Assembly (NCBI RefSeq): GCF_003228315.1
Contig: NZ_CP029693.1
Span: forward strand, 2,046,001-2,110,000
DNA: 64,000 nucleotides
Reading direction: 5' to 3'
From: Pseudomonas putida
GTDB lineage: Bacteria > Pseudomonadota > Gammaproteobacteria > Pseudomonadales > Pseudomonadaceae
Below are positions 1 to 34,740 of the stretch, piece after piece. The translations under genes and the position numbers were made by a program. Each line of letters opens with the position of its first letter. Position 1 is the stretch's first letter. The notes below the pieces were generated by a model. That model was given only the letters and a program-made list of their open reading frames with translations, had not been told where the DNA came from and searched no databases.

Positions 1-207
1 GCGGGGCGCGCGATCATGCAAGCGGTGTGTGCATTCGATGGTCGCCAGATTGGGTCCATCTTCGGGCGCTTCACCGCCCCGGCCTACCCCGGTGAAACCT
101 TCCGCACGGAGATCTGGGTCGATGGCCCGGTCATCTCCTTCCGGGTTCGCAGCATTGAACGCGATGTAGTGGTCATCAATAACGGTCGAGCCGAACTCAG
201 AGGCTGA
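1..207 (+). CDS. MaoC-like hot-dog dehydratase, C-terminal fragment (5' end outside window)
   Basis: The reading frame is open from the first base and ends at TGA 205-207, so only the last 68 codons are inside the window. The tail has an AGRAIMQAVC segment, then an APAYPGETF strand, and closes with VVINNGRAEL. The MaoC proteins at 31391-32260 and 33140-33991 end in the same way (AGRAL..., PMYPGETLR, ITILNNGYVEF). It is therefore the end of a further 2-enoyl-CoA hydratase-type protein of about 285 residues. The catalytic Asp/His motif lies upstream of the window and cannot be checked. A short-chain dehydrogenase follows 26 bases downstream on the same strand, probably in one operon. Confidence 0.75.
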   Translation, partial: AGRAIMQAVCAFDGRQIGSIFGRFTAPAYPGETFRTEIWVDGPVISFRVRSIERDVVVINNGRAELRG

Positions 208-1108: not shown

Positions 1109-2290
1109 TTACTCGCTGGACAACAACACGGCCCCGGCCAATGGGCCGCCGCCATTACTCGCCACCGCCAGGTGCGGTTGACCCGGTACTTGCCGGGCCC
1201 CGCCTTCGCCGCGCAACTGGACCACGGCCTCATGCACATGGCCGAGCCCATGAAGACGTCCGGCCGACAGTTGGCCGCCGTGGGTGGCCATTGGCAACTG
1301 GCCGTCCAAGGCAATACGGTGACCGCCTTCGACGAACGCCGCCGCCTCACCGCGCCCACAGAAACCCAGCCCCTCCAGCCACAGCAGACTGAGAAAACTG
1401 AAGCCGTCATACAGCGCGGCAACCTTCACGTCGGCAGGCTTGTAGTCGGTACGCTGCCAAAGCCGCCGACCTGCCTCTTCGGCGCAATAGCGCGTCAGAT
1501 CGCCCATCTGATCCCAAGCGTCACGGCCGGTGAACGGGCCGCAGATTGATTCGATGTTGACCGGCCGCGAGCGCAAGTCCGGCGCCGTATCACGGTGAGA
1601 AACGATCACCACCGTCGAACCATCCACCGGCACGTCGCAGTCGTACAGGCAAAGCGGCGTCGACACCATGCGCGATGCCAGATACTGCTCCATGCTCAGC
1701 GGCTCGCGATAGACCGCCTTGGGATTAAGCGCCGCATTGCGTCGGGCATTGAGCGCAACCGCCGCCAGCTGCTCGCGGGTCGCGCCAAACTCATGGAAGT
1801 AACGGCTGGCAACCAGCCCCACCCAGTTGGCCGCCGACGCCGCCTGAAACGGCACCTGGAATTCGCCAAAGCCCGATACACGCCCTTCTCCTCCTACGGA
1901 GCTTGAGCGCACGCCCGTGGCCAGCGCGCTGGATTCGGTGACGGTGCGAAAACAGATGACGTGCCTGGCCTGACCCGAACCGACTGCCATGCAGGCATTG
2001 ATCAAGGCGCTCATCTGCGTCGCTTCGTTACCGGCACTGTACCAACCCAGCTCCAGCCCCAGCGATTCCTTGACCTGACCAATAGACACCGGGGAAAAAG
2101 CCGGCATATCGGCACGGTAGCCCGGCCAGCTGGCAACACCGTCGATGTCCTTGCGGTCCAGGCCGGCATCCTCAAGGGCCGCCAATATGGCTTCCAGCGT
2201 CAGGTCCAGGCCACTACGTCCCAGCCTGCGACCCACTGCCGATTGCCCGATGCCGGAGATGATCGCTTGGCGCTCTGGAGCCGTGGTCAT
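1109..2290 (-). CDS. Thiolase-fold lipid-transfer protein, Ltp2-like
   Basis: Protein of 393 residues of the non-decarboxylating thiolase / sterol-carrier thiolase superfamily. It begins AIISGIGQSAVGRR and ends with a THGGQLSAG...GLGH segment and a SNGGG loop, as in Ltp2-type proteins. The nucleophile position of true thiolases (NACASGS, seen in the gene at 29095-30282) reads INACMAVGSG here, and the last catalytic Cys is absent from SNGGG. Thiolysis is therefore doubtful. In actinobacterial steroid degradation Ltp2 is a retro-aldolase that works with a DUF35 domain; such a domain is encoded at 23742-24113. The start ATG at 2290 was chosen because homologous sequence begins there; an upstream extension has no domain content. 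Confidence 0.75.
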   Translation of the reverse strand: MTTAPERQAIISGIGQSAVGRRLGRSGLDLTLEAILAALEDAGLDRKDIDGVASWPGYRADMPAFSPVSIGQVKESLGLELGWYSAGNEATQMSALINACMAVGSGQARHVICFRTVTESSALATGVRSSSVGGEGRVSGFGEFQVPFQAASAANWVGLVASRYFHEFGATREQLAAVALNARRNAALNPKAVYREPLSMEQYLASRMVSTPLCLYDCDVPVDGSTVVIVSHRDTAPDLRSRPVNIESICGPFTGRDAWDQMGDLTRYCAEEAGRRLWQRTDYKPADVKVAALYDGFSFLSLLWLEGLGFCGRGEAAAFVEGGHRIALDGQLPMATHGGQLSAGRLHGLGHVHEAVVQLRGEGGARQVPGQPHLAVASNGGGPLAGAVLLSSE

Positions 2291-2405
2291 GAAAATTCCT
2301 CTAGTTTTTGATCTCGAGTCACCGCCGCTCTCCGTTTCGGATTTGGCGATATGCAATTGTCGGGGTCTTGAGTATTGACCCACCTGCAACACTGCGGCAG
2401 ACTCT

Positions 2406-13158: not shown

Positions 13159-14457
13159 TTAATTGTTCAGGATGTGCGCGTAGCGGGCCCGCGCTGCCGC
13201 GATCTTCGGCGGCAGGTGTTCGCTGGGGAACATGCCTTCAGCGGGTTTGTAGCGACGCAGCAGCTCACGGGCCACGGTCACCCGGTGGACCTCGGTGGGG
13301 CCGTCAGCCAGGCCGAATGTCGGCACATTCATCCACATGTAGGCCAAGGGTGTTTCGTAGGTCGCGCCCAGGGAGCCGTGAAGGTGCAGCGCTCGCTGAA
13401 CGATGTCGTGATAGATCTTGGCCATACCGACCTTGACCATGGCGATGTGAGCGCGAGCCTGGCGCGGATCGCCATGGCTGCGATCGATGATCCAGGCGGT
13501 CTTCATGACCAGCAGGCGAAATTGCTCAAGCTCGATCTGGCTGTCGGCAATCATCGTCTGCACGGTCCCCATATCGGCCAGCAGCGTGCCTTGGGTACGC
13601 CGACTGAGCGCCCGTTCACACATCATGTCCAAGGCCCGCTGGCACTGCCCGACGATCCGCATGGCGTGATGCACCCGACCACCACCGAGGCGCGCCTGCG
13701 CCACCGCAAAGCCACCGCCCTGCTCGCCCAGCATGTGATCGAGCGGTACGCGCACGTTGTTGTAATGCAGATAGCCCTCAGTCGCCTCATCCATTTCCAG
13801 GCGCTCGCCCATGTAAGGCGCATTGCGGATGATCTCCAGGCCTTCGGTCTCCCGAGGCACGATGAACATCGACATGCGCTTCTGGATAGGGGCCTCGGGG
13901 TCGGTCACTGCCAGCACCAACACGAATTCGGCATATCGTGCGTTGGAGGAGAACCATTTCTCACCGTTGATGACCCAATGGCCACCCTCACGCACAGCCG
14001 TGGTGGTGAACACCCGTGGGTCTGCACCACCCTGCGGCTCGGTCATGGAAAAGCAGGAAACGATATCGCCATCGAGCAGCGGCTGCAGGTAGCGTTCCTT
14101 TTGCTGCGGGGTGCCGAACATGGCAAGAATTTCAGCGTTGCCGGTGTCCGGTGCGGCGGTGCCGAACACGGTTGGCGCCCACAAGGAGCGCCCCAGACGC
14201 TCGTTCATCAAGGCCAGAGCGACCTGGCCGTAGCCTTCTCCACCCAGCTCCTCACCGAGGTGACAGGCCCAAAGTTTCTGGCGTTTGACCTCGTCCTGCA
14301 GCGGTTTGAGAATGGCCCGTGAGGCTTCGTGGCGAGTGTTGTAAACCACACTCACCGATGGAAACAGCACGTCCAGCGGTTCCACTTCCTCGACCAGAAA
14401 ACGGTCGATCCAATCCAGCTTTTTTTGGAACTCAGGGTCGGTCGAAAAATCCCACAT
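13159..14457 (-). CDS. Acyl-CoA dehydrogenase, LvaC/ACAD10-11-like
   Basis: FAD-dependent acyl-CoA dehydrogenase family protein of 432 residues. Motifs are SMTEPQGGADPRVF in the FAD-binding middle domain, VINGEKWFSS, and near the C-terminus ADGPTEVHRVTVARELLRRY. The last motif is typical of the group that pairs with an acyl-CoA kinase. In Pseudomonas putida levulinate catabolism LvaA phosphorylates a 4-hydroxyacyl-CoA and LvaC helps remove the phosphate. Here the kinase-like gene lies directly upstream (33-base gap), so the same two-step removal of a gamma- or delta-hydroxyl is inferred. The start ATG is at 14457. Confidence 0.85.
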   Translation of the reverse strand: MWDFSTDPEFQKKLDWIDRFLVEEVEPLDVLFPSVSVVYNTRHEASRAILKPLQDEVKRQKLWACHLGEELGGEGYGQVALALMNERLGRSLWAPTVFGTAAPDTGNAEILAMFGTPQQKERYLQPLLDGDIVSCFSMTEPQGGADPRVFTTTAVREGGHWVINGEKWFSSNARYAEFVLVLAVTDPEAPIQKRMSMFIVPRETEGLEIIRNAPYMGERLEMDEATEGYLHYNNVRVPLDHMLGEQGGGFAVAQARLGGGRVHHAMRIVGQCQRALDMMCERALSRRTQGTLLADMGTVQTMIADSQIELEQFRLLVMKTAWIIDRSHGDPRQARAHIAMVKVGMAKIYHDIVQRALHLHGSLGATYETPLAYMWMNVPTFGLADGPTEVHRVTVARELLRRYKPAEGMFPSEHLPPKIAAARARYAHILNN

Positions 14458-14490
14458 GGTATTTCCCCAGACAGCGTTTTAATGGACCGC

Positions 14491-15558
14491 TCAGGCGGCA
14501 GAGATGAGTTGGCGAGCCTTGGCCATCAGCCAGGTGGCGTAGTTGTGCAGGTAGTCGCCCATTTCCTTCGGCGCCTTGCCGACCAGGGAGCGCGCGTAGG
14601 TGCCTTCGAGCAGGCAGGCGAGCTTGTAGCAGGCCAACACGAAGAACCACGCCAGGCTGGACAGATCGCGACCGGTCAGTTCGCCATACAGTGCAATCAG
14701 TTCACTGCGGGACATGAACCCATCCCAAGGCTCAACCACCGGCTTGCTGCCAGCGCCCGGAATCTGTGGGTCGCCCGGTTCACGCCAGGATGTCAACACC
14801 CAGGCAAGATCCAGCAGCGGGTCGCCAAGGGTCGACAGCTCCCAGTCGATCAGGCCGCTGATGCGCGGTGACTCTAGAGAAAACATCACGTTGGGCCACT
14901 GATAGTCGCCATGGATGATGCCGATGCGGCCATCTTGCGGGACGTTGTCCGCGAGCCAGCGACCCACTTCATCGACGCTGGGCAAGCCACTTTGCTGATA
15001 GCCGGGGGTATCGCGATAACCATCGAGCTGCGAGCGCCAGCGATCGACTTGGCGACCATGCCAGTTCTCGGGACGGCCGAAGTCCGCGAGCCCGGCCTGC
15101 TGATAGTCCACCTGACTCAGCGACGCCGCCGCACGAACGAAGGCTTCACCCATCTGGTAGCGCCAACTCGCATCGGTGGCATAGCGGCCTTGCAATTGAC
15201 CGGCCGGAGAGAAGCCTTCAAGCGGCTCCATGAGGAAGAAGTTCACGCCCATCATCGAGCTGTCGGTACAGACAGCCAAGAGCGCCGGATGAGGGACGTC
15301 GCTGCCCGCCAGCGCCTTGAGCACCCGGGCTTCTCGCAACATGGTTTCATTGCTGTTGGCACGCAGATGTCGAGGTGGACGGCGCAGCACCATTTGCCGG
15401 GTGCCGCGGTTGAGCATGAACAGATTGTTCTGCGAGCCGCCGGTCAGCTGGCGGACTTCGGTGATCGGGCCGTCGCCGGGCAGGCCTGCGTCGTCAAGCC
15501 ACGGCTGCAACACGGACCAATCGAGCAAACCGTCGAAATCGGGAAGTGTCGGCTTCAT
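14491..15558 (-). CDS. Acyl-CoA kinase, APH/ACAD10-type phosphotransferase
   Basis: Aminoglycoside-phosphotransferase-fold protein of 355 residues. It has VRQLTGGSQNNLFML as the N-lobe, the catalytic HGDYQWPNVMF loop near residue 210 and IDWELSTLGDPLLDLAW as the metal-binding segment. These match the LvaA/ACAD10-11 kinase domain group, which phosphorylates hydroxyacyl-CoA, rather than antibiotic kinases. It is followed 33 bases later by the matching acyl-CoA dehydrogenase. The MarR gene ends 104 bases upstream on the same strand. Confidence 0.84.
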   Translation of the reverse strand: MKPTLPDFDGLLDWSVLQPWLDDAGLPGDGPITEVRQLTGGSQNNLFMLNRGTRQMVLRRPPRHLRANSNETMLREARVLKALAGSDVPHPALLAVCTDSSMMGVNFFLMEPLEGFSPAGQLQGRYATDASWRYQMGEAFVRAAASLSQVDYQQAGLADFGRPENWHGRQVDRWRSQLDGYRDTPGYQQSGLPSVDEVGRWLADNVPQDGRIGIIHGDYQWPNVMFSLESPRISGLIDWELSTLGDPLLDLAWVLTSWREPGDPQIPGAGSKPVVEPWDGFMSRSELIALYGELTGRDLSSLAWFFVLACYKLACLLEGTYARSLVGKAPKEMGDYLHNYATWLMAKARQLISAA

Positions 15559-23741: not shown

Positions 23742-24113
23742 ATGACGACTATTCGCCCCGACGCCGACTTTCAGGAATTTCTGAAGCAAGGCCAATTCAT
23801 GCTCCAGCGCAGCCGCTCGAGCCAACGCTGCTTTTTTTATCCTCGGGTGCTTGAGCCGCGAACCGGCAATACCGACCTGGAATGGGTGCAAGCCAGCGGG
23901 CTTGGCACCGTCTACTCAGCGACGGTTATCCGCCCCAAGCCTCCCGCACAGCCCTACAACGTGTCCCTGGTCGACCTTGATGAAGGTCCGCGAATGATGA
24001 CGCGCATTGAAGGCATGCCCGCCGAACAGGTCACGATCGGCCTGCGTGTCAAGGCGCGCATCGTCGAGGAAGTTGACCAGTTTTTTGTCGTTTTCGACCC
24101 ACACCACCACTAG
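23742..24113 (+). CDS. DUF35 OB-fold acyl-CoA-associated protein
   Basis: Small 123-residue protein with the OB-fold half of DUF35. The segments are GLGTVYSATVIRPKPPAQPYNVSLVDLDEGPRMM (region only), MTRIEG and IGLRVKARI, ending in FVVFDP. Such proteins bind thiolases or MaoC hydratases (Ltp2 and ChsH2 partners in steroid catabolism). The N-terminal zinc ribbon usually has four Cys; only one Cys (QRCFFYPR) is present here, so zinc is probably not bound. It is the first gene of a run with an SDR, a CoA-transferase and two acyl-CoA dehydrogenases. The likely partner is the Ltp2-like protein at 1109-2290, more than 20 kb away. Confidence 0.8.
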   Translation: MTTIRPDADFQEFLKQGQFMLQRSRSSQRCFFYPRVLEPRTGNTDLEWVQASGLGTVYSATVIRPKPPAQPYNVSLVDLDEGPRMMTRIEGMPAEQVTIGLRVKARIVEEVDQFFVVFDPHHH

Positions 24114-26145: not shown

Positions 26146-27306
26146 ATGACATCAACCTTCAGTTTCAAACCCTTGCAGCTGCCTGCCGCCCTGGAGCCTT
26201 TACGCCAGGAAGTCCGGTCTTTTCTGCAGGACAGCGCCAGCCAATGGTCGGGCTGGAAGATCGGTCACTCCTGGACGGGGTTCGACCGCGAATTCAGCCT
26301 AGAAGTCGGTCGCCGCGGCTGGATCGGCATGACCTGGCCAAAAGCCTACGGCGGCCACGAGCGCTCCGGCCTGGAGCGATACGTGGTGGTCGAGGAAATG
26401 CTCGCTGCAGGCGCGCCGCTGGGTGCGCACTGGTTCGGCGACCGACAGAGCGGCCCCCTGCTCTTGCGCCTGGGCAGTGAAGAACAGCGTCGCCGCTTCA
26501 TTCCACTCATCGTCAAAGGCCAGGCCTCGTTTTGCATTGGCCTGAGCGAACCCGACTCGGGCTCGGACCTGGCTTCGCTACGATCGCGCGCTACCCGTGT
26601 CGCCGGTGGCTGGCGACTTAATGGCCGCAAGGTCTGGACCACCAACGCACACCTGTGCGACTTCATGATCGGGCTGTTCCGCACGGGTGCCAGTGCTGAC
26701 GCGGAGCGCCACAAAGGCCTTTCTCAGTTCCTGATCGACATGCGCTCATCCGGCATCGAAGTACGCCCCATTCACGATCTGACAGGCGAAGCGCACTTCA
26801 ATGAAGTCGTCTTCGACGATGTCTTCGTTCCCGACGATATGCTGGTGGGGCAAGAAGGTGACGGCTGGAGCCAGGCCACGGCGGAGCTGGCTTTCGAACG
26901 CAGCCAACCGGATCGCTATATGAGCAGCTTTCCTCTGCTGCCCTTGACCATCGAAGCCCTGCATGGCGACCACAAGGCCGACCGTCTGGCGGCACGAAAA
27001 CTGGGAGAGGCCTACGCGGAATTGACGGTGTTGCGCGAGATGTCGCTGTCCATCCTTGGCCAACTTCAGGATGGCCACTCCCCTGCCAAGGAAGCCGCCC
27101 TGGTCAAGGACCTGGGCAATACCCATGAGCAACGAATCCCGGAGCTCGTGCGCGAATTGCTCGACACGCCATCCACCCTTGTCAGGGGTAACAAGTTGAG
27201 TGAATTGCAGGGTTTCCTCGTACAGAACGTGCCGAGCTTCTCCCTGCGTGGCGGAACACGCGAAATTTTGCGCGGCATCATTGCCAAGGGGCTTGGACTG
27301 CGATGA
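26146..27306 (+). CDS. Acyl-CoA dehydrogenase, subunit 1 of a likely heteromer
   Basis: Acyl-CoA dehydrogenase of 386 residues with GLSEPDSGSDLASLRSRA and LNGRKVWTTNAH in the middle domain, and SLRGGTREILRGI at the C-terminus where the Glu sits in the FAD-loop of the family. It is followed by a second, shorter family member that overlaps it by four bases. Such adjacent pairs form alpha2-beta2 enzymes for bulky acyl-CoA in steroid side-chain catabolism (ChsE1-ChsE2 type). This gene keeps the FAD-binding C-terminal motif, whereas the partner does not. Electrons would pass to ETF (42650-44329). Confidence 0.87.
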   Translation: MTSTFSFKPLQLPAALEPLRQEVRSFLQDSASQWSGWKIGHSWTGFDREFSLEVGRRGWIGMTWPKAYGGHERSGLERYVVVEEMLAAGAPLGAHWFGDRQSGPLLLRLGSEEQRRRFIPLIVKGQASFCIGLSEPDSGSDLASLRSRATRVAGGWRLNGRKVWTTNAHLCDFMIGLFRTGASADAERHKGLSQFLIDMRSSGIEVRPIHDLTGEAHFNEVVFDDVFVPDDMLVGQEGDGWSQATAELAFERSQPDRYMSSFPLLPLTIEALHGDHKADRLAARKLGEAYAELTVLREMSLSILGQLQDGHSPAKEAALVKDLGNTHEQRIPELVRELLDTPSTLVRGNKLSELQGFLVQNVPSFSLRGGTREILRGIIAKGLGLR

Positions 27307-28364
27307 GTGACGACATGAACATCAGCGAAATGCTCGCAGAACAAGTGAACCGACTCTTCACTGACCGTATCGATCGCCAGACCTGGGTCGATGCTGAAGA
27401 TGGTCGCCCGGCGACAGTCCTCTGGGCCGAGATCGAGCAGTTGGGCATCCCCCTCGCCATGTGTCAGGAACAGCATGGCGGCGCCGGCCTGAGCTGGACC
27501 GAGAGTGAACCGATGTTGCGTCTGTGTGGCACCCATGCGGTTCCTTTGCCCGTCGGGGAAACGGCCATCGCAGCGTGGGCGCTTTCCTGTGCCGGACTGC
27601 AAGTGCCTGAAGGTCCCATGGCGGTATCGACCAGCGTGTATCAACTGGATGGGCAAGATCGCTTGCTGGGTCGTGACCCGCAATTAAGCTGGTTGCCGCA
27701 GGTCGAGCATGTCGTATTGCTCGCCGAGCGCGAAGGCGACCTGTACCTATGCCTGGTTAGAGCCAGTGAAGGTGAGCAGCAAATAGTCGAAACCCTCGAC
27801 CGCCTTCCCTGCGCGCAATGGAACCTGAGCAACACGCGTCCCGAACAGTTTGCAGCCGCACCGCCAATACTTGGAACGAGCACGCTGCAACCGCTGATCG
27901 CTGTGCTCAGAAGCATTCAGATGGCCGGAGCTTTGGCTAAGGTGCTGGAGTTCTGTGTGGACTATGCCAACACCCGTGTGCAGTTCGGCAAACCGATCGG
28001 TAAGTTCCAGGCCATTCAGCACATGATTGCCGAGCTCGCCTCCCAAGCAGCGGCAGCCCAGGTTGCTGGCCTGTACGCGGCACGCATGATCGATGCAGGT
28101 AATCCGTTCCAGGCGGCGGCAGTGGCCAAGGCACTGGTTGGAAAGGCCGCAGGACGCGCTGCCGCCATGGCCCACCAGGTGTTTGGTGCCATTGGCGTGA
28201 CCGACGAGCACAGCCTTCACTACTACACCCGACGCCTGTGGCAATGGCGCGCGGATGCCGGTAGCGAACACTACTGGGCAGAACGTCTGGGCCAACAGAT
28301 TTTGGCTCGTGACGGTGCGGCCTTGTGGAGCAGGCTGACCCAACCGATGGAACAGTCTGCCTAG
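27303..28364 (+). CDS. Acyl-CoA dehydrogenase, subunit 2 of a likely heteromer
   Basis: Protein of 353 residues. The last half has the acyl-CoA dehydrogenase C-domain: NTRVQFGKPIGKFQAIQHMIAEL (region only), HQVFGAIGVTDEHSLHYYTRRLW. The middle FAD/acyl-binding strands are short and the GGTxEI motif of the partner is missing, as expected for the degenerate subunit of a heterotetramer. It overlaps the upstream dehydrogenase by four bases (ATGA). It is probably active only with that partner. It ends the plus-strand operon; a hairpin follows. Confidence 0.83.
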   Translation: MSDDMNISEMLAEQVNRLFTDRIDRQTWVDAEDGRPATVLWAEIEQLGIPLAMCQEQHGGAGLSWTESEPMLRLCGTHAVPLPVGETAIAAWALSCAGLQVPEGPMAVSTSVYQLDGQDRLLGRDPQLSWLPQVEHVVLLAEREGDLYLCLVRASEGEQQIVETLDRLPCAQWNLSNTRPEQFAAAPPILGTSTLQPLIAVLRSIQMAGALAKVLEFCVDYANTRVQFGKPIGKFQAIQHMIAELASQAAAAQVAGLYAARMIDAGNPFQAAAVAKALVGKAAGRAAAMAHQVFGAIGVTDEHSLHYYTRRLWQWRADAGSEHYWAERLGQQILARDGAALWSRLTQPMEQSA

Positions 28365-28420: not shown

Positions 28421-28981
28421 TCACTTCTGGCTTCTGATCAACTGCAAAAACTCTTGGCGAGTGTTGGCACATTCGCGCAACTGTCCGAGCATGACCGAGG
28501 TCGTCATCATTGAGTTCTGCTTTTCCACGCCGCGCATCATCATGCACAGGTGCTTGGCTTCAATCACCACGGCGACACCGACGGCATTGGTGACTTGCTG
28601 GACCGCTTCGGCAATCTGCCGAGTCAGGTTTTCCTGAATCTGCAGGCGGCGCGCAAACATATCGACGATGCGGGCAATCTTCGACAAGCCCAATACCTTG
28701 CCGGACGGAATGTAGGCCACATGCGCCTTGCCAATGAACGGCAGTAGATGGTGCTCGCACAACGAGTACAGCTCGATATCCTTGACGATCACCATTTCAT
28801 CGTTGTCCGACTCGAACAGCGCACCGTTGACGAGTTCTTCGACGGTTTTCTGGTAACCATTACACAAATACTGCATGGCCTTGGCCGCACGTTTTGGGGT
28901 GTCCAGCAACCCTTCACGTTCGACATTTTCACCAAGCCCCTGAAGGATGGCCTGATAGTGCTGCGACAACTGCTCGCTCAT
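28421..28981 (-). CDS. folE: GTP cyclohydrolase I
   Basis: Enzyme of 186 residues converting GTP to 7,8-dihydroneopterin triphosphate for folate or tetrahydropterin synthesis. [18 protein letters not shown] carries the zinc Cys and the two His, and KHLCMMMRG carries the second zinc Cys. The length fits bacterial FolE. ATG 28981 is used; the upstream extension has no family content. It is an odd guest in a catabolic cluster. Pseudomonas genomes often hold more than one folE, so this may be an extra copy, possibly supplying a pterin cofactor. No pterin-dependent hydroxylase is visible in the window. Confidence 0.93.
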
Positions 28982-29045
28982 ATCGCCCTCACGAAACCAC
29001 GCCGGCCAACACCTGCGCAGACAAATCAATCGACTGGAAGAAAGC

Positions 29046-29094: not shown

Positions 29095-30282
29095 TCAGAT
29101 CCTTTTCAGAATGGTGACGACGCAGGCGCCGCCCAACCCGACGTTGTGCTGCAGCCCCAGGCGTGCGCCAGGTACCTGGCGATCACCCGCCAACCCGCGT
29201 AAATGCCAGGACACTTCAGCAATTTGTGCCAGGCCCGTCGCCCCCAATGGATGCCCCTTGGACAACAGTCCGCCGGATGGGTTGGTGACCACCTTGCCCC
29301 CATAGGTGTTGTCGCCATCGAGAACGAAGCGTTCGCTGCCGCCTTCGGCGCACAAGCCCAGCGCCTCGTAGCTGATGATCTCATTGGATGAGAAGCAGTC
29401 ATGCAGCTCGACCAGATCCAGGTCCTGCGGCCCGACACCTGCTTGCGCATAGGCTTGCTGAGCAGCCCGCGAGGTCATGCCGGCACCGACCACTTGGATC
29501 ATGCTGCCGGACTCGTAGCTTTGCGGTCCGTCGGTGGTCAGGCTCATGCCGGCGATCTCCACGCAATTGGCCAGGCCATGTTTGCGTGCATAGGCTTCGG
29601 ACACCACCACTGTCGCTGCGGCGCCGCAGGTCGGCGGACAGCACATCAGGCGCGTCAATGGACCAAAAATGGCTGGCGAACCCATGACCTGCTCCAGGGT
29701 CAGCGGGTCAGTGAACAGTGCGTAAGGGTTGCGCCCGGCATGGCTGCGGGCCTTGACCGAAACCCGACCGAACAGCTCGGCAGTCACGTTGTATTTTTCC
29801 ATGTACTCGGCACCCGCCCCACCGAAGTACTGAGGCCCAGTGGGCGCCAGCTCGTCCCAGCCACGGATGCGTCGAGTGGCCTCATCGATACGCACAGTGA
29901 TTGGCGTGCGGGCAGCGGCGTCACTGCCAGCCAGGGCACCGGGATTCATTTGTTCGAAACCAACGGCCAAGGCAACATCGACAACCCCGCTCATGACCGC
30001 CTGACGCGCCAGAAACAAGGCCGAAGAGCCGCTGGCACAGGCGTTGTTGACGTTGATCACCGGAATCTGCGTCAACCCCGCATGGTATAGCGCCGTCTGC
30101 CCAGAGCAGGTGTCACCGGAAACGAAACCGGCATACGCCTGCTGTACCTGACCATATTCAATACCGGCATCCTTGAGGGCACTGGCAATCGCCTGTGCGC
30201 CCATGACGTCATACATTTCACTCTTGCCTGGCTTGGTGAACTTGACCATGCCAACACCGGCGACCAGAACTTTATTGCTCAT
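29095..30282 (-). CDS. Acyl-CoA thiolase, SCP-x type
   Basis: Thiolase of 395 residues with the nucleophile motif NNACASGSSALFLA near residue 90, LHDCFSSNEI, GHPLGATGLAQ with the catalytic His and a final VGLGGACVVTIL that places the second catalytic Cys. This is the full set for 3-ketoacyl-CoA thiolysis. Sterol-carrier-x-type thiolases handle branched or bulky acyl groups. ATG 30282 was chosen because GGAG lies six bases before it; a GTG 12 bases earlier has none. It follows the SDR at 30334-31197 by 51 bases on the same strand. Confidence 0.89.
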   Translation of the reverse strand: MSNKVLVAGVGMVKFTKPGKSEMYDVMGAQAIASALKDAGIEYGQVQQAYAGFVSGDTCSGQTALYHAGLTQIPVINVNNACASGSSALFLARQAVMSGVVDVALAVGFEQMNPGALAGSDAAARTPITVRIDEATRRIRGWDELAPTGPQYFGGAGAEYMEKYNVTAELFGRVSVKARSHAGRNPYALFTDPLTLEQVMGSPAIFGPLTRLMCCPPTCGAAATVVVSEAYARKHGLANCVEIAGMSLTTDGPQSYESGSMIQVVGAGMTSRAAQQAYAQAGVGPQDLDLVELHDCFSSNEIISYEALGLCAEGGSERFVLDGDNTYGGKVVTNPSGGLLSKGHPLGATGLAQIAEVSWHLRGLAGDRQVPGARLGLQHNVGLGGACVVTILKRI

Positions 30283-30333
30283 GCTGTTCTCCACAGGACG
30301 ATGCGCGTCCGAGATGAGTTGATCGGTGCTTGC

Positions 30334-31197
30334 TTAACGAGCGAAATCCATGATGGTCAGGGCAGTTTCCGAGCGGAAAACCTTGTCCTCTTCAGCGGCC
30401 AGACGCTGGGCACTGAACTGCGGATCGACGCCACCACCACGAATGCCTTCAGCCGACACCAGCTTCAGTTCTCGCACGCTCTGACCAGAAGCAAACAGGC
30501 AATGCCCGGTGCGCTGACCGGATAGCTCACTGACCATGTAAAGCACCACCTGGGCCACATGCTCGGGCGCCAACTGAGCCTTGCTGATTTCGTCCATCAA
30601 TGGCGCGGTCAGCGCGGAAACCGCGGCCGGTGCGAGCGTCCAGACCCGCACGCCGAATTTGGCAGCCTCGATCGCCAGCACATTGGAGAAGCCCCAGGCA
30701 CCACATTTGGACGCTGCGTAGTTGGCCTGGCCAAAATTGCCAACCAGCCCGGACGTGGAAGAGGTGTTGACGATGACCCCGCCACCGTTCTCCTTCATCC
30801 AGCCAAATACCGGTTGAGTGACGGCGTACATGCTCTTGAGGTTGACCGCGATGACTGCATCCCAATCCGCTTCGCTCAACTTGAGGAACGATTTGTCGCG
30901 AAGGATCCCGGCGTTGTTGATCAGGATATCGGCGCGTCCGAAATGCTCCAGTGCGGTTGCGCACAAGGTCTGACCGCCTTCGACGGTCGAGATGTCCTGG
31001 GTGTGGGCGACTGCCTGACCACCGCTATCGCGTATCCCCTGCGCCACTGACTCGGCAATATAGGCACCGTTTTCGTCACGCCCCAGGTCATTGACCACAA
31101 TGGCCGCGCCCTCGGCGGCTAGCAACGTTGCATAGGCAGCACCCAGCCCGCGCCCGGCACCGGTGATGATTGCGACTTTCCCACTCAATAAAGCCAT
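30334..31197 (-). CDS. 3-hydroxyacyl-CoA dehydrogenase, MFE-2-type SDR
   Basis: SDR of 287 residues with TGAGRGLGAAYA near residue 12, VVNDLGRDENG after the second strand, NNAGILRDKSF, SSTSGLVGNFGQANYAASK with the catalytic Ser, Tyr and Lys. NDLG and LRDKSF are hallmarks of the dehydrogenase unit of peroxisomal multifunctional enzyme 2, so (3R)-hydroxyacyl-CoA oxidation is likely. The C-terminal 60 residues extend beyond the SDR core. It is divergent from the MaoC hydratase at 31391, which would make its substrate. A paralogue is at 35055-35957. Confidence 0.88.
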   Translation of the reverse strand: MALLSGKVAIITGAGRGLGAAYATLLAAEGAAIVVNDLGRDENGAYIAESVAQGIRDSGGQAVAHTQDISTVEGGQTLCATALEHFGRADILINNAGILRDKSFLKLSEADWDAVIAVNLKSMYAVTQPVFGWMKENGGGVIVNTSSTSGLVGNFGQANYAASKCGAWGFSNVLAIEAAKFGVRVWTLAPAAVSALTAPLMDEISKAQLAPEHVAQVVLYMVSELSGQRTGHCLFASGQSVRELKLVSAEGIRGGGVDPQFSAQRLAAEEDKVFRSETALTIMDFAR

Positions 31198-31313
31198 TGT
31201 CTGTCTCCAAAACGTTCTTGTTATGAGCGAGGCCTCGGACACCCAACTGAACCTCAGTCACTAATTTATGACGAATGGCCTGTTTTTAGCGGCCCCACAT
31301 GAATACTACACCG

Positions 31314-31338
31314 CATAACTGACTATTTGACAGTTTTA
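31314..31338. promoter_or_regulatory. Putative regulon operator, copy 7
   Basis: The left arm CATAACTGACTA matches 9 of 12 positions and the right arm TTGACAGTTTTA 8 of 12. It lies between the divergent SDR (start 31197) and MaoC (start 31391) genes. Confidence 0.5.
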
Positions 31339-31390
31339 ATGTTAAAGGCAATGCTATGGCTCAGCAACCACCCTGGCCGAGGAATAAAAC

Positions 31391-32260
31391 GTGTCTCTCG
31401 ATTACCAACGTATAAAAAACTGGTCCATTCCAGAGGCCAGACAAACCTACAGCGAACGCGACACCATCCTTTATGCATTGGGTGTCGGTGCCGCTACCTG
31501 CAACCCTCTCGCCGCCGAGGACCTGCAGTACGTCTACGAGCCTGGCTTGAAGGCGTTGCCGACCATGGCCAGCATCCTGGCCGGCGGCGCATCCTGGCTG
31601 GCCGATCCGGAAACCGGAATTGACCTGAGCAAGGTCCTGCATGGCGAACAGTTCCTGACCCTGCATCAGCCCCTTCCCGCTCACGGTGAAGTGATCGGCC
31701 GTGACCAGGTCGACGAAATTTTCGACAAGGGTGCTGACAAGGGTGCGGTGATGTACATGTCGCGGCGCATCTACTGCGCGCGCACTGAAACGCTACTGGC
31801 GACCTCGAAGTGGTCGACCTTCATGCGTGGCAACGGCGGCTTCGGTGGCTCGGCCGAAGGCCAGCCCAAGCCGCACCCAATCCCTACAGACCGGCCTTGC
31901 GATTTGAGCATCGAGCTGGAAAGCCGTCCTGAGCAGGCCGTGATTTATCGCCTGTCCGGAGATTTGAATCCCTTGCACATCGACCCGGCCTTTTCCGCCC
32001 TCGCCGGTTTCGACAAGCCGATCCTGCACGGCATGAGCAGCTATGGAATGGCTGGCAGGGCACTGATCAAGTTGCTTTGCGACAACGACCCCGCTCGACT
32101 GCGGGAGCTGAACCTGCGCTTCGCCGCACCTATGTATCCCGGTGAAACGTTGCGTATCGAAGCCTGGCGCGAAGGCCCTGGCCAGGCCTCTTTCAGAGTG
32201 ATTGCTACACAGCGCGACATCACCATCCTCAACAACGGTTACGTTGAGTTCGACGCATGA
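31391..32260 (+). CDS. MaoC-type 2-enoyl-CoA hydratase (hydratase 2)
   Basis: Double hot-dog protein of 289 residues that adds water to a trans-2-enoyl-CoA to give the (3R)-hydroxyacyl-CoA. The C-terminal half holds the hydratase-2 motif YRLSGDLNPLHIDP near residue 190, with catalytic Asp and His, followed by KPILHGMSSYGMAGRAL. The N-terminal half is the inactive hot-dog that binds the acyl chain. Start is GTG 31391. The pair of MaoC and divergent MFE-2-type SDR gives two successive beta-oxidation steps. It overlaps or abuts the crotonase gene. Confidence 0.89.
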   Translation: MSLDYQRIKNWSIPEARQTYSERDTILYALGVGAATCNPLAAEDLQYVYEPGLKALPTMASILAGGASWLADPETGIDLSKVLHGEQFLTLHQPLPAHGEVIGRDQVDEIFDKGADKGAVMYMSRRIYCARTETLLATSKWSTFMRGNGGFGGSAEGQPKPHPIPTDRPCDLSIELESRPEQAVIYRLSGDLNPLHIDPAFSALAGFDKPILHGMSSYGMAGRALIKLLCDNDPARLRELNLRFAAPMYPGETLRIEAWREGPGQASFRVIATQRDITILNNGYVEFDA

Positions 32261-32280
32261 CTGACAACAGGAAAACCATC

Positions 32281-33081
32281 ATGGAATACCAAGACATCAG
32301 CTACGAAATCATCGGCCACGTGGCCCGCATCAGTCATAACCGGCCAGGCAACGCCAACGCCGAATCGGAAAACTTGCTCGCCGAACTCGACCACGCTCTG
32401 GATCTGGCGAAAAAGGACGACAATGTCCGCGTGCTTATCATTGGCGCCATAGGCAAGCACTTTTCGGCCGGGCACGACTTGATGGATGGCATGGAAAAAC
32501 GCGGCGAATTCTCGCCCGAGCAGCACTGGCTGTGGGAAAGCGAACACTACCTGGGCAACGCTCTGCGCATCTGGGACTTTCCAAAACCAACGATCGCTCA
32601 AGTACAAGGTGCCTGCATCGCCGGTGGTTTCATGGTCGCCAACATGTGCGACATCATGATCGCTGCCGACGACGCCTTCTTCAGCGACCCGGTCGCCCAT
32701 AGCCTGGCTGCGGCCTCGGTGGAAACACTGGTCCATCCTTGGGTAATGGGCATTCGCAAAGCCAAGGAATTTCTGTTCACCGGGCAGAAAATCAGCGCAA
32801 GCGAAGCCAAGGAATGGGGCATGGTCAACCATGTGGTGCCACGCGCGGAACTTGAGCAATACACCATGAACATGGCCGAGCACATCGCCAAGGCACCCCC
32901 CATTGGCTTGCGCATGCTCAAGCGTTCGATCAATCGTTCGGCTGACATCATGGGTTTCCGCAATTCGATCATGGCGCACTTCGACACTCACATCCTCAGC
33001 ACCTCGACCAACGAGCACTACGCCGTAGCCGCCGCTGGCATGCGCGCCTCGCTCGAAGCCGCCAAGAAAGCCCAATCCTGA
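32281..33081 (+). CDS. Crotonase-fold enoyl-CoA hydratase-like protein
   Basis: Crotonase-superfamily protein of 266 residues. The oxyanion-hole segments are GKHFSAGHDL near residue 60 and GACIAGGFMVANMCDIMIA near residue 110. Aligned with rat enoyl-CoA hydratase, both catalytic Glu positions are replaced: Met in AGGFMVA and Val in FSDPVA. Simple hydration is therefore unlikely; isomerase, hydrolase or C-C-cleaving activity is possible. An in-frame ATG at 32257 overlaps the MaoC stop (ATGA). ATG 32281 is preferred for its AGGA, but the choice is open. A GC hairpin follows. Confidence 0.84.
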   Translation: MEYQDISYEIIGHVARISHNRPGNANAESENLLAELDHALDLAKKDDNVRVLIIGAIGKHFSAGHDLMDGMEKRGEFSPEQHWLWESEHYLGNALRIWDFPKPTIAQVQGACIAGGFMVANMCDIMIAADDAFFSDPVAHSLAAASVETLVHPWVMGIRKAKEFLFTGQKISASEAKEWGMVNHVVPRAELEQYTMNMAEHIAKAPPIGLRMLKRSINRSADIMGFRNSIMAHFDTHILSTSTNEHYAVAAAGMRASLEAAKKAQS

Positions 33082-33089
33082 GCCCCAAC

Positions 33090-33111
33090 GGGCAGGCCTG
33101 CGGGCCTGCCC
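33090..33111 (+). terminator. GC hairpin after the crotonase gene
   Basis: GGGCAGGCC and GGCCTGCCC form a 9-bp stem with a 4-base loop, with no T run. It lies inside the operon between the crotonase and the next MaoC gene, so it may act as an attenuator or RNA-stabilising element rather than a full stop. Confidence 0.45.
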
Positions 33112-33139
33112 ATCCGTGTCATCGCCTGGAGCAACCGTA

Positions 33140-33991
33140 GTGTCCCTTGATTATCAAACGCTAATGAACTGGCCGTTTGCGGCCTCCACTCGCACCTACG
33201 GCAGAGCTGACAGCATTCGCTTCGCCAAAGGTTTCGGTGCGGGCGTCGACCCCAGCTGGCAGGATATTGATAGCCGCTTTATCGATGACAACCCGGCATT
33301 GACTGGCCTGCCAATGAGTGCCGTAGCCTTGGCTGATGGTGAGTTCTGGCAGCAAGATCCGCGCAGCGGGATCGTCTGGCAGCAGATGGTGCATGCCCAG
33401 GAGAGCCTGCGTGTACATCGCCCTCTGCCGGTAGAAGGAAGCGTGGTACTGACCCAGAAGATTAAAGACGTGTTCGATCGAGGGGATAAAGGTGCCTTGA
33501 TGGTACAGGAGCAACTGCTCAGCGATGAGCAGGGTAATCCGTTGGTGAGCATCGAAGTGACCACGGTATTACGTGGTAACGGCGGTTTTGGCGGCCAGCC
33601 GCAACCCTCACAGCGCCCAGAAGCCATTCCTGATCGCCGTCCTGATTGCACGCTGGAAATCCGCACCCCCGAGGGCGCCGACACCTTGTTCCGGTTATCG
33701 GCCGACATTGCGGTCGCCGCGCAGGCGCAAGCGGACACGCAGCAATACATGCTGCGCGGATTGGGCTGTTTTGGTTTGGCCGGGCGAGGTGCTTTGCTAA
33801 TGGCCTGCGACAATGAACCCGATCGCCTGCGCGCCATTGGCGTGCGCTATGCCGGGCCGATGCTGACAAGTGAAACCATGCGCATCGACTTGTGGCACGT
33901 GCGCTCGGGTTTTGCGCTGTTCAAGATGCACGCCTGCGAACGCGATGCGCCGGTGCTGAGCCACGGCTTCATCGAGTTCGACCCAGCCTGA
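33140..33991 (+). CDS. MaoC-like protein with lost catalytic motif
   Basis: Double hot-dog protein of 283 residues, clearly homologous to the MaoC at 31391 (SLDYQTLMNWPF start, RGNGGFGG linker, AGPMLTSETMRI end). The active-site segment that reads SGDLNPLHIDP in that protein reads SADIAVAAQAQAD here, so the general acid/base Asp and His are gone. It may be a structural or acyl-binding partner of an active MaoC protein, or an enzyme with new chemistry. GTG 33140 was chosen because GGAG is eight bases upstream. It ends three bases before the convergent TetR stop. Confidence 0.82.
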   Translation: MSLDYQTLMNWPFAASTRTYGRADSIRFAKGFGAGVDPSWQDIDSRFIDDNPALTGLPMSAVALADGEFWQQDPRSGIVWQQMVHAQESLRVHRPLPVEGSVVLTQKIKDVFDRGDKGALMVQEQLLSDEQGNPLVSIEVTTVLRGNGGFGGQPQPSQRPEAIPDRRPDCTLEIRTPEGADTLFRLSADIAVAAQAQADTQQYMLRGLGCFGLAGRGALLMACDNEPDRLRAIGVRYAGPMLTSETMRIDLWHVRSGFALFKMHACERDAPVLSHGFIEFDPA

Positions 33992-33993
33992 AA

Positions 33994-34740
33994 TCAAGGC
34001 TGGGGTTCAGTCTCCTCCGGGGCCACAGCGTCTTCAGCTGTGGCTTTGGAAGCGCCATTTTTGGGTTTGGTCAGAGCTGCCGCCCTCATGCTGGCACTGT
34101 CGGTGGGTTGCCCGATCAGAGTCTGTACGACTATTCGAGCAATGGCCGCATTGACACGCTTGGCACCAAGCCCTCGCTCCATGACCACCGGGTCCAACGC
34201 CGCCAAGCGCTCCATTGCCGCATGCAATACAGTGGCCTCTGCATATGCGTCGCTTTTTTTGCGTCCGCCCATGGGTGGATTGACCGCAAGGATCAGCTTG
34301 GCAAAGCGTTCGATGAACGGGATATAGGTGTTCATTCGCAGCTCTTCGAAACGAGGGTCGCCACGGTCTGCTTCCAGGTTTCGATAACGCAACACCTCGC
34401 GATGACGGCTCCAGACCATGTTCAATGATTCGATAATACCCAGCGCTTCTTCCTCGTAACGCGCAGGGTTCCAAGGCTTTTCAAGCAAACGTGCTACTTC
34501 AGCCATCTCCTCGCCGGCATCAAGACTCAGCGCATACAGCACATCCTGCACATCATCGAAATACATATAAAAGCTTGCCGATGACGTACTCGCCGCCTTG
34601 GCAATGGCCACTGCGGTGATATCCGGCAGCGGGTGCGTATAGAGCAATCGGCGTGTGGCGGACATCAGCCGCTGCCGGGTTTCCAAGCCTTTGCGTCCGA
34701 GCGTCTGGCCCTGCTTGTTCATCGTGACGTCGTTTGCCAT
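33994..34740 (-). CDS. TetR/AcrR-family regulator, probable master regulator of the cluster
   Basis: Protein of 248 residues. The N-terminal HTH is at about residues 20-65 (ITAVAIAKAASTSSASFYMYFDD, region only), followed by a helical ligand-binding domain. The last 40 residues are a charged, low-complexity tail. TetR proteins in such clusters are usually repressors released by a CoA-thioester. Operator copy 8, the best palindrome, lies in the 314-base gap between this gene and the divergent SDR at 35055, which fits autoregulation. That this protein binds all eleven copies is inferred. Confidence 0.88.
   Translation of the reverse strand: MANDVTMNKQGQTLGRKGLETRQRLMSATRRLLYTHPLPDITAVAIAKAASTSSASFYMYFDDVQDVLYALSLDAGEEMAEVARLLEKPWNPARYEEEALGIIESLNMVWSRHREVLRYRNLEADRGDPRFEELRMNTYIPFIERFAKLILAVNPPMGGRKKSDAYAEATVLHAAMERLAALDPVVMERGLGAKRVNAAIARIVVQTLIGQPTDSASMRAAALTKPKNGASKATAEDAVAPEETEPQP

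Follow-up and report, generated by a model that had tools for sequence, protein, structure and literature searches.

Two double hot-dog MaoC proteins at one locus

The window, i.e. the whole 64,000-nt stretch of DNA analysed here, carries on one strand two genes for double hot-dog MaoC proteins, with a crotonase gene as the sole gene between them. We refer to the upstream, intact protein as I and to the downstream paralogue as D. The features at this locus are as follows.

31391..32260 (+): I, an intact double hot-dog (R)-enoyl-CoA hydratase of the hydratase-2 type, 289 aa, GTG start (MaoC_dehydratas PF01575, 97 bits; MFE-2_hydrat-2_N, 83 bits)
31955..31984 (+): SGDLNPLHID motif of I, residues 189-198 (Asp191, His196), intact in 14/14 I proteins
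32257..33081 (+): crotonase between I and D (NF006140, 333 bits)
33140..33991 (+): D, a double hot-dog MaoC paralogue apparently without the catalytic housing, 283 aa, GTG start, GGAG at 33128-33131
33320..33379 (+): D-specific conserved block AVALADGEFWQQDPRSGIVW, residues 61-80, N-terminal central-helix region (mean identity 0.91 in D versus 0.79 in I)
33698..33736 (+): SADIAVAAQAQAD, the motif remnant in D, with Asp189 (33704-33706) retained and model pLDDT <50 at residues 193-197
33994..34740 (-): TetR-type regulator, adjoining D in 12 of 13 relatives' regions, though not in genome G086 (locus L032) nor on a Massilia plasmid

The frame at 33140-33991 translates free of stops, and in a pairwise alignment its product is 35% identical to I (101/289) over the whole length. 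Pfam MFE-2_hydrat-2_N matches both proteins, with 34 bits for D, while the catalytic MaoC domain is found in I and goes unreported in D at an E value of 0.01. The segment YRLSGDL of I aligns ungapped with FRLSADI of D at the motif Asp; SGDLNPLHID as a whole corresponds to SADIAVAAQAQAD, in an alignment with a 5-residue gap. For the crotonase, comparison with homologues suggests a start at ATG 32281 rather than at 32257. The 58-nt gap between crotonase and D holds a GC-rich inverted repeat (33090-33111, GGGCAGGC...GCCTGCCC), spotted by eye, with no T run. Scans of 31200-34200 returned no promoter-like sites (1.0 in shuffles) and one terminator-like site (2.9 in shuffles).

We then tabulated the motif in 14 D proteins: that of the window, those of 12 Pseudomonadaceae genomes and one from a Massilia putida plasmid. 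L030 was omitted, its D protein being identical to that of L033 (the motif is absent there too), as were L005-L009, which are the same records as L029, L036, L039, L040 and L031. The motif acid is retained in all 14 (Asp in 11, Glu in 3). The motif His and the NPLH stretch are missing from every one, and the Asn from 13, L031 being the exception. At the later LHG, Arg stands instead of His in 14/14, and the Gly is kept in 14/14. Residues that follow the retained acid differ in both length and letters among the homologues. By comparison, the motif is intact in all 14 I proteins and in 23/23 other double hot-dog MaoC proteins. The motif loss is neither a sequencing error nor a chance event. The initial annotation had the motif replaced in D, as it is, and described D as lacking the catalytic Asp and His; the loss of His is general among the D proteins, whereas an acid persists at the Asp position in each of them.

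Predicted structures of D and I

The single-chain AlphaFold model of D has a mean pLDDT of 89.7 and a pTM of 0.87, with the low-confidence dip confined to the motif remnant. Its top match among solved structures is 1s9c, hydratase 2 of human MFE-2 (Z 29.8 over 264 residues), followed by Arabidopsis enoyl-CoA hydratase 2 (Z 29.3), 3khp (Z 29.1) and 1pn2 (Z 24.6). 3khp is HtdY, as given in PMC7161113. The closest solved structure to I is likewise 1s9c (192.7 bits). Both I and D thus have the MFE-2-type double hot dog that marks the hydratase-2 fold, and the description of D as a double hot-dog MaoC paralogue beside an intact one is borne out by the shared Pfam domain and by the models of both proteins.

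The models diverge around the motif. In that of I (pLDDT 88.0), helices at 182-187, 194-196 and 199-204 precede the central helix (214-229), in a stretch with block mean pLDDT values of 65-77. The model of D has no helix in the motif stretch ahead of its central helix (207-222). Given this, it appears that the housing itself has been lost from D, and not just one residue. Hydratase 2 of human and yeast MFE-2 (1s9c, 1pn2) and mycobacterial HtdY are sequence relatives of D and, like D, full-length double hot dogs. However, the Asp/His motif of these enzymes sits in an overhanging segment, whereas D is devoid of the His and, in its model, of the helices of that segment. With His in 0/14 and no housing helices predicted, we treat D as a homologue of the family and do not class it as an active hydratase.

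Distribution and gene order

Of 398 genomes sampled from the genus, 6 contain D, and of 298 from the family, 9 do (the genome of the window counts in both); of 369 from the class, only the window's own does. The genus and family genomes that contain I are exactly those that contain D. At the orthologue thresholds applied to the Pseudomonadaceae sample, 14 distinct genomes have both genes and none has just one. Among plasmid records, 180 have a D relative; in the best 20 of 180, one stands at 50% (Massilia) and 19 at 32-36%. Phage records gave no match to D.

In 13 of the 14 genomes, I and D lie in one conserved cluster, in the order SDR, CoA-transferase, two acyl-CoA dehydrogenases (ACADs), folE, thiolase, SDR, I, crotonase, D, TetR, SDR, MaoC, ADH, reductase and amidohydrolase, although several of the stretches are truncated where a contig or region stops, and L031 showed no ADH. 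In G086 the two genes are apart: contig 13 carries D together with the crotonase, and contig 32 carries I, which lies there amid relatives (63-73%) of four further genes of the window. On the Massilia putida plasmid (NZ_CP019037.1), the same order is seen for folE, a lipid-transfer protein gene, SDR, I, crotonase and D. Overall, D adjoins the crotonase in 15/15 loci and I does so in 14/15. One caveat here is that co-occurrence of I and D is mostly to be expected anyway, as the genes share one cluster in 14/15 loci. D also marks a conserved catabolic cluster of Pseudomonadaceae and Massilia, of which we found no description in open-licence PMC papers.

Origin of D and selection acting on it

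To place D, we built a maximum-likelihood tree of 51 proteins, without the motif columns and with the 23 other double hot-dog MaoC proteins included; the double hot-dog loci L064, L066 and L067 were omitted, since their genus code is the same as that of L063, L065 and L072. D and I together form one clade (support 100/98), within which D forms one (100/100) and I another (98/92). The stem branch of D is 0.89 long, and the tree tool flags long branches, including that of D in G086. On this tree, D and I are sister paralogues from one old duplication. The outermost row is G086 in both clades, and Massilia comes next (96/85 in D, only 85/33 in I); such matching branching is as expected if the two had been inherited jointly since the duplication.

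Values of dN/dS for D are 0.05-0.20 in five of six pairs, dS being saturated in the sixth, and no D match in the genus and family genome samples contains an internal stop. By these ratios, D is under purifying selection. A pseudogene or frameshift reading of D was considered and is ruled out by dN/dS and the open frames. In four distant pairs, where dS is near saturation, dN is 0.29-0.38 for D and 0.15-0.22 for I, which makes D about twice as fast. A contrast like this is seen between the second ACAD of the cluster (0.26-0.43) and the first (0.12-0.14). The ADH and ferredoxin reductase genes are equally fast (0.26-0.45), so the rate alone is no signature. It fits a partner under weaker constraint and also an independent role.

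D and I share 36 positions at which a single residue is found throughout both; at another 34, D is invariant, while I has a different residue or varies. Among 15 compared blocks, residues 61-80 make up the only one with higher conservation in D than in I (for residues 261-280 the two are level at 0.80). Ten of the 34 D-specific invariant residues fall within this block, a concentration matched in any 20-residue window by 31 of 20000 random placements, in a test that treats the 14 sequences as unrelated and makes no correction for kinship. In the AlphaFold model, the block spans short helices of D's N-terminal hot dog. PMC2698920 describes, as one kind of assembly, the dimer of DdhA, in which double hot dogs pack via their central helices, and it lists DdhA for the MaoC subfamily. 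We infer that block 61-80 contributes to an interface or a cleft.

Comparison with known hydratase systems

The initial annotation likened I and D, in principle, to ChsH1-ChsH2. In that system, as described in PMC11321319, there is a single MaoC hot dog per chain, the inert one providing the substrate pocket for the other; ChsH2 has Tyr in place of His, retains a three-helix housing and carries DUF35. As with ChsH1-ChsH2, only one member of our pair has a complete dyad (His in 14/14 I and 0/14 D proteins, the acid in both). Unlike the single MaoC hot dogs of ChsH1 and ChsH2, both I and D are double hot dogs without DUF35, and D, unlike ChsH2, has no housing in its model. The OB_ChsH2_C domain, fused to ChsH2, is a separate protein in the window (at 23742). 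The analogy therefore holds in outline, as an inert and a catalytic partner, and fails in arrangement, in that I brings an inert hot dog of its own and D has no housing.

HadAB and HadBC differ from I and D in consisting of separate subunits and in belonging to the mycolic-acid pathway; HadA, HadB and HadC are single hot dogs. According to PMC11321319, catalysis resides in HadB, and the non-catalytic HadA and HadC are believed to bind the acyl chain. The same source gives ChsH3, CasD and CasQ as two MaoC domains fused in one chain with no DUF35. In this they resemble I, and the passages of PMC11321319 that deal with them mention no second fully inert paralogue. Inert hot-dog partners are already known in separate-chain MaoC hydratases and as halves of fused ones, MFE-2 included. 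For a wholly inert second double hot dog beside an intact one, we found no report among open-licence PMC papers.

D as a candidate partner subunit of I

We consider it about an even bet (probability roughly 0.5) that D is a non-catalytic partner subunit of I, with the two proteins presumed to associate physically. The heteromer with one inactive subunit that the initial annotation proposed is plausible, partly supported, and the best reading of four observations taken together: I and D are sister paralogues, occur in the same set of genomes in the sample, are kept by purifying selection in the case of D, and differ by a conserved block specific to D. The retained double hot-dog fold of the D model also counts for partnership, as do the I-crotonase-D order on a betaproteobacterial plasmid and the presence of both genes even in G086, where they are on separate contigs. 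Counting against it, D in G086 lies beside the crotonase and not beside I. Furthermore, I should be complete on its own, with everything that a hydratase of its type needs, since it has its own N-terminal hot dog as well as a catalytic C-terminal one.

Mechanistically, a double hot-dog hydratase would have been duplicated, and the C-terminal hot dog of one copy, D, would then have been stripped of its catalytic housing. Neither half of D would be catalytic. D may have kept the dimer interface without the chemistry and so have replaced one subunit of an ancestral homodimer, giving an I-D hetero-oligomer with fewer active sites per hydratase. In such an oligomer, D would brace or shape I, as HadA and HadC do for HadB and ChsH2 for ChsH1, and could stabilise or tune the substrate cleft of I for a bulky acyl-CoA. 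The effect on substrate binding and the nature of the substrate are inferred. If the proposal is right, the retention of a complete second double hot dog, devoid of housing, alongside the intact one would mean that inert layers can be stacked, and I and D would be a natural pair for asking what a non-catalytic hot dog contributes to a hydratase.

The main rival, a less probable role for D with about one chance in four by our estimate, is with the adjacent crotonase, or as a homodimer, where it would act as an uncapped acyl-CoA binder that holds an intermediate or hands it over between I and the crotonase. It is the crotonase, and not I, that adjoins D at every locus, G086 included. Judging from the models, the cleft of D should be open in the absence of the housing. 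The crotonase has Met and Val at the positions of the two Glu residues of 4k29, as do 6/6 cluster homologues compared, and may therefore be something other than a plain hydratase. However, Glu-less crotonases are unremarkable here: among six others compared (five from this genome and one from the Massilia plasmid), three are without both residues, two have one and one has both, which makes the missing Glu weak evidence. The sister relation of D to I, moreover, favours an interface derived from an ancestral homodimer. An unlikely extension would combine the two ideas, with I, the Glu-less crotonase and D in one complex, where D would be dedicated to cradling the acyl-CoA and relaying it, as the hydrated or enoyl intermediate, from I to the crotonase. 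If true, this three-part complex would amount to a hydratase in which one whole double hot-dog subunit is inert.

It is also doubtful that D is a different enzyme, such as a thioesterase or isomerase, that uses the retained acid on the same CoA ester. The invariance of an acidic residue at the motif position and of the Arg in place of the LHG His would suit such an activity, and several hot-dog thioesterase subfamilies are described as employing Asp or Glu (PMC2698920). Against this, the acid sits at the edge of the low-confidence stretch of the model, and the residues after it vary in a way that a new active site would not. Solved thioesterases are also far poorer matches to the D model, FatA reaching Z 16.8 versus 29.8 for hydratase 2. 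That D is a self-sufficient hydratase in which another residue substitutes for His seems very improbable: the acid and the LHG Gly persist throughout, but the His is gone and the model has no housing helices. Least credible of all is a decaying relic of the duplication, which the long stem and faster evolution of D might suggest, given its low dN/dS, its stop-free matches, its maintenance in beta- and gammaproteobacteria, and the positions held invariant in both families (36) or in D only (34).

The surrounding cluster and its substrate

Further genes of the cluster and its surroundings are listed here.

23742..24113 (+): free-standing OB_ChsH2_C (DUF35) protein (PF01796, 74.6 bits)
26146..28364 (+): two adjacent acyl-CoA dehydrogenase genes (26146-27306 and 27303-28364), which may encode a heteromeric ACAD
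28421..29029 (-): folE, GTP cyclohydrolase I, within the cluster (PF01227, 251 bits)
29095..31242 (-): thiolase (29095-30294) and SDR (30334-31242), divergent from I, conserved neighbours

The first ACAD has its best solved matches in 4x28_A and 6wy9/6wy8_B, chains of heterotetrameric ACADs. For the second, the best match is 2jif, then 6wy8_A, with 4x28_D lower down. The DUF35 protein could form an aldolase pair with a thiolase-like protein at 1109-2392 (-), whose Thiolase_N match is under the cut-off. folE is found in 11 of 13 relatives' regions (it is absent from L030, which is short, and from L032) and on the Massilia plasmid. It is a pterin gene within a beta-oxidation cluster.

A module 50-70 kb to the right of the window (L082, G000:C1:2160001-2180000) contains HsaA-like, HsaC-like and KstD-like genes, all scoring under the model cut-offs: HsaA 391 of 450 bits, HsaC 311 of 450 (the biphenyl-diol dioxygenase model gives 310) and KstD 129 of 789. 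Two further genes of the module, which the profile search assigned to no family, we take to resemble IpdAB CoA-transferase subunits. A clear orthologue of the HsaA-like protein is present in one of four D-bearing genomes (77%) and in one of three D-less genomes (85%). The hint of a steroid from this genome context does not track D in these seven genomes, and we make no claim of a steroid substrate.

At 13159-15558 (-), an ACAD gene adjoins a phosphotransferase (APH) gene, and the same pair is present on the Massilia plasmid; the arrangement is similar to that of hydroxy-acid kinase with ACAD. The left edge of the window cuts through the gene for a third double hot-dog MaoC protein (G000:C1:2045347-2046207), with an intact motif (NGDWNPLHAD), which occupies positions 1-207 (+) of the window.
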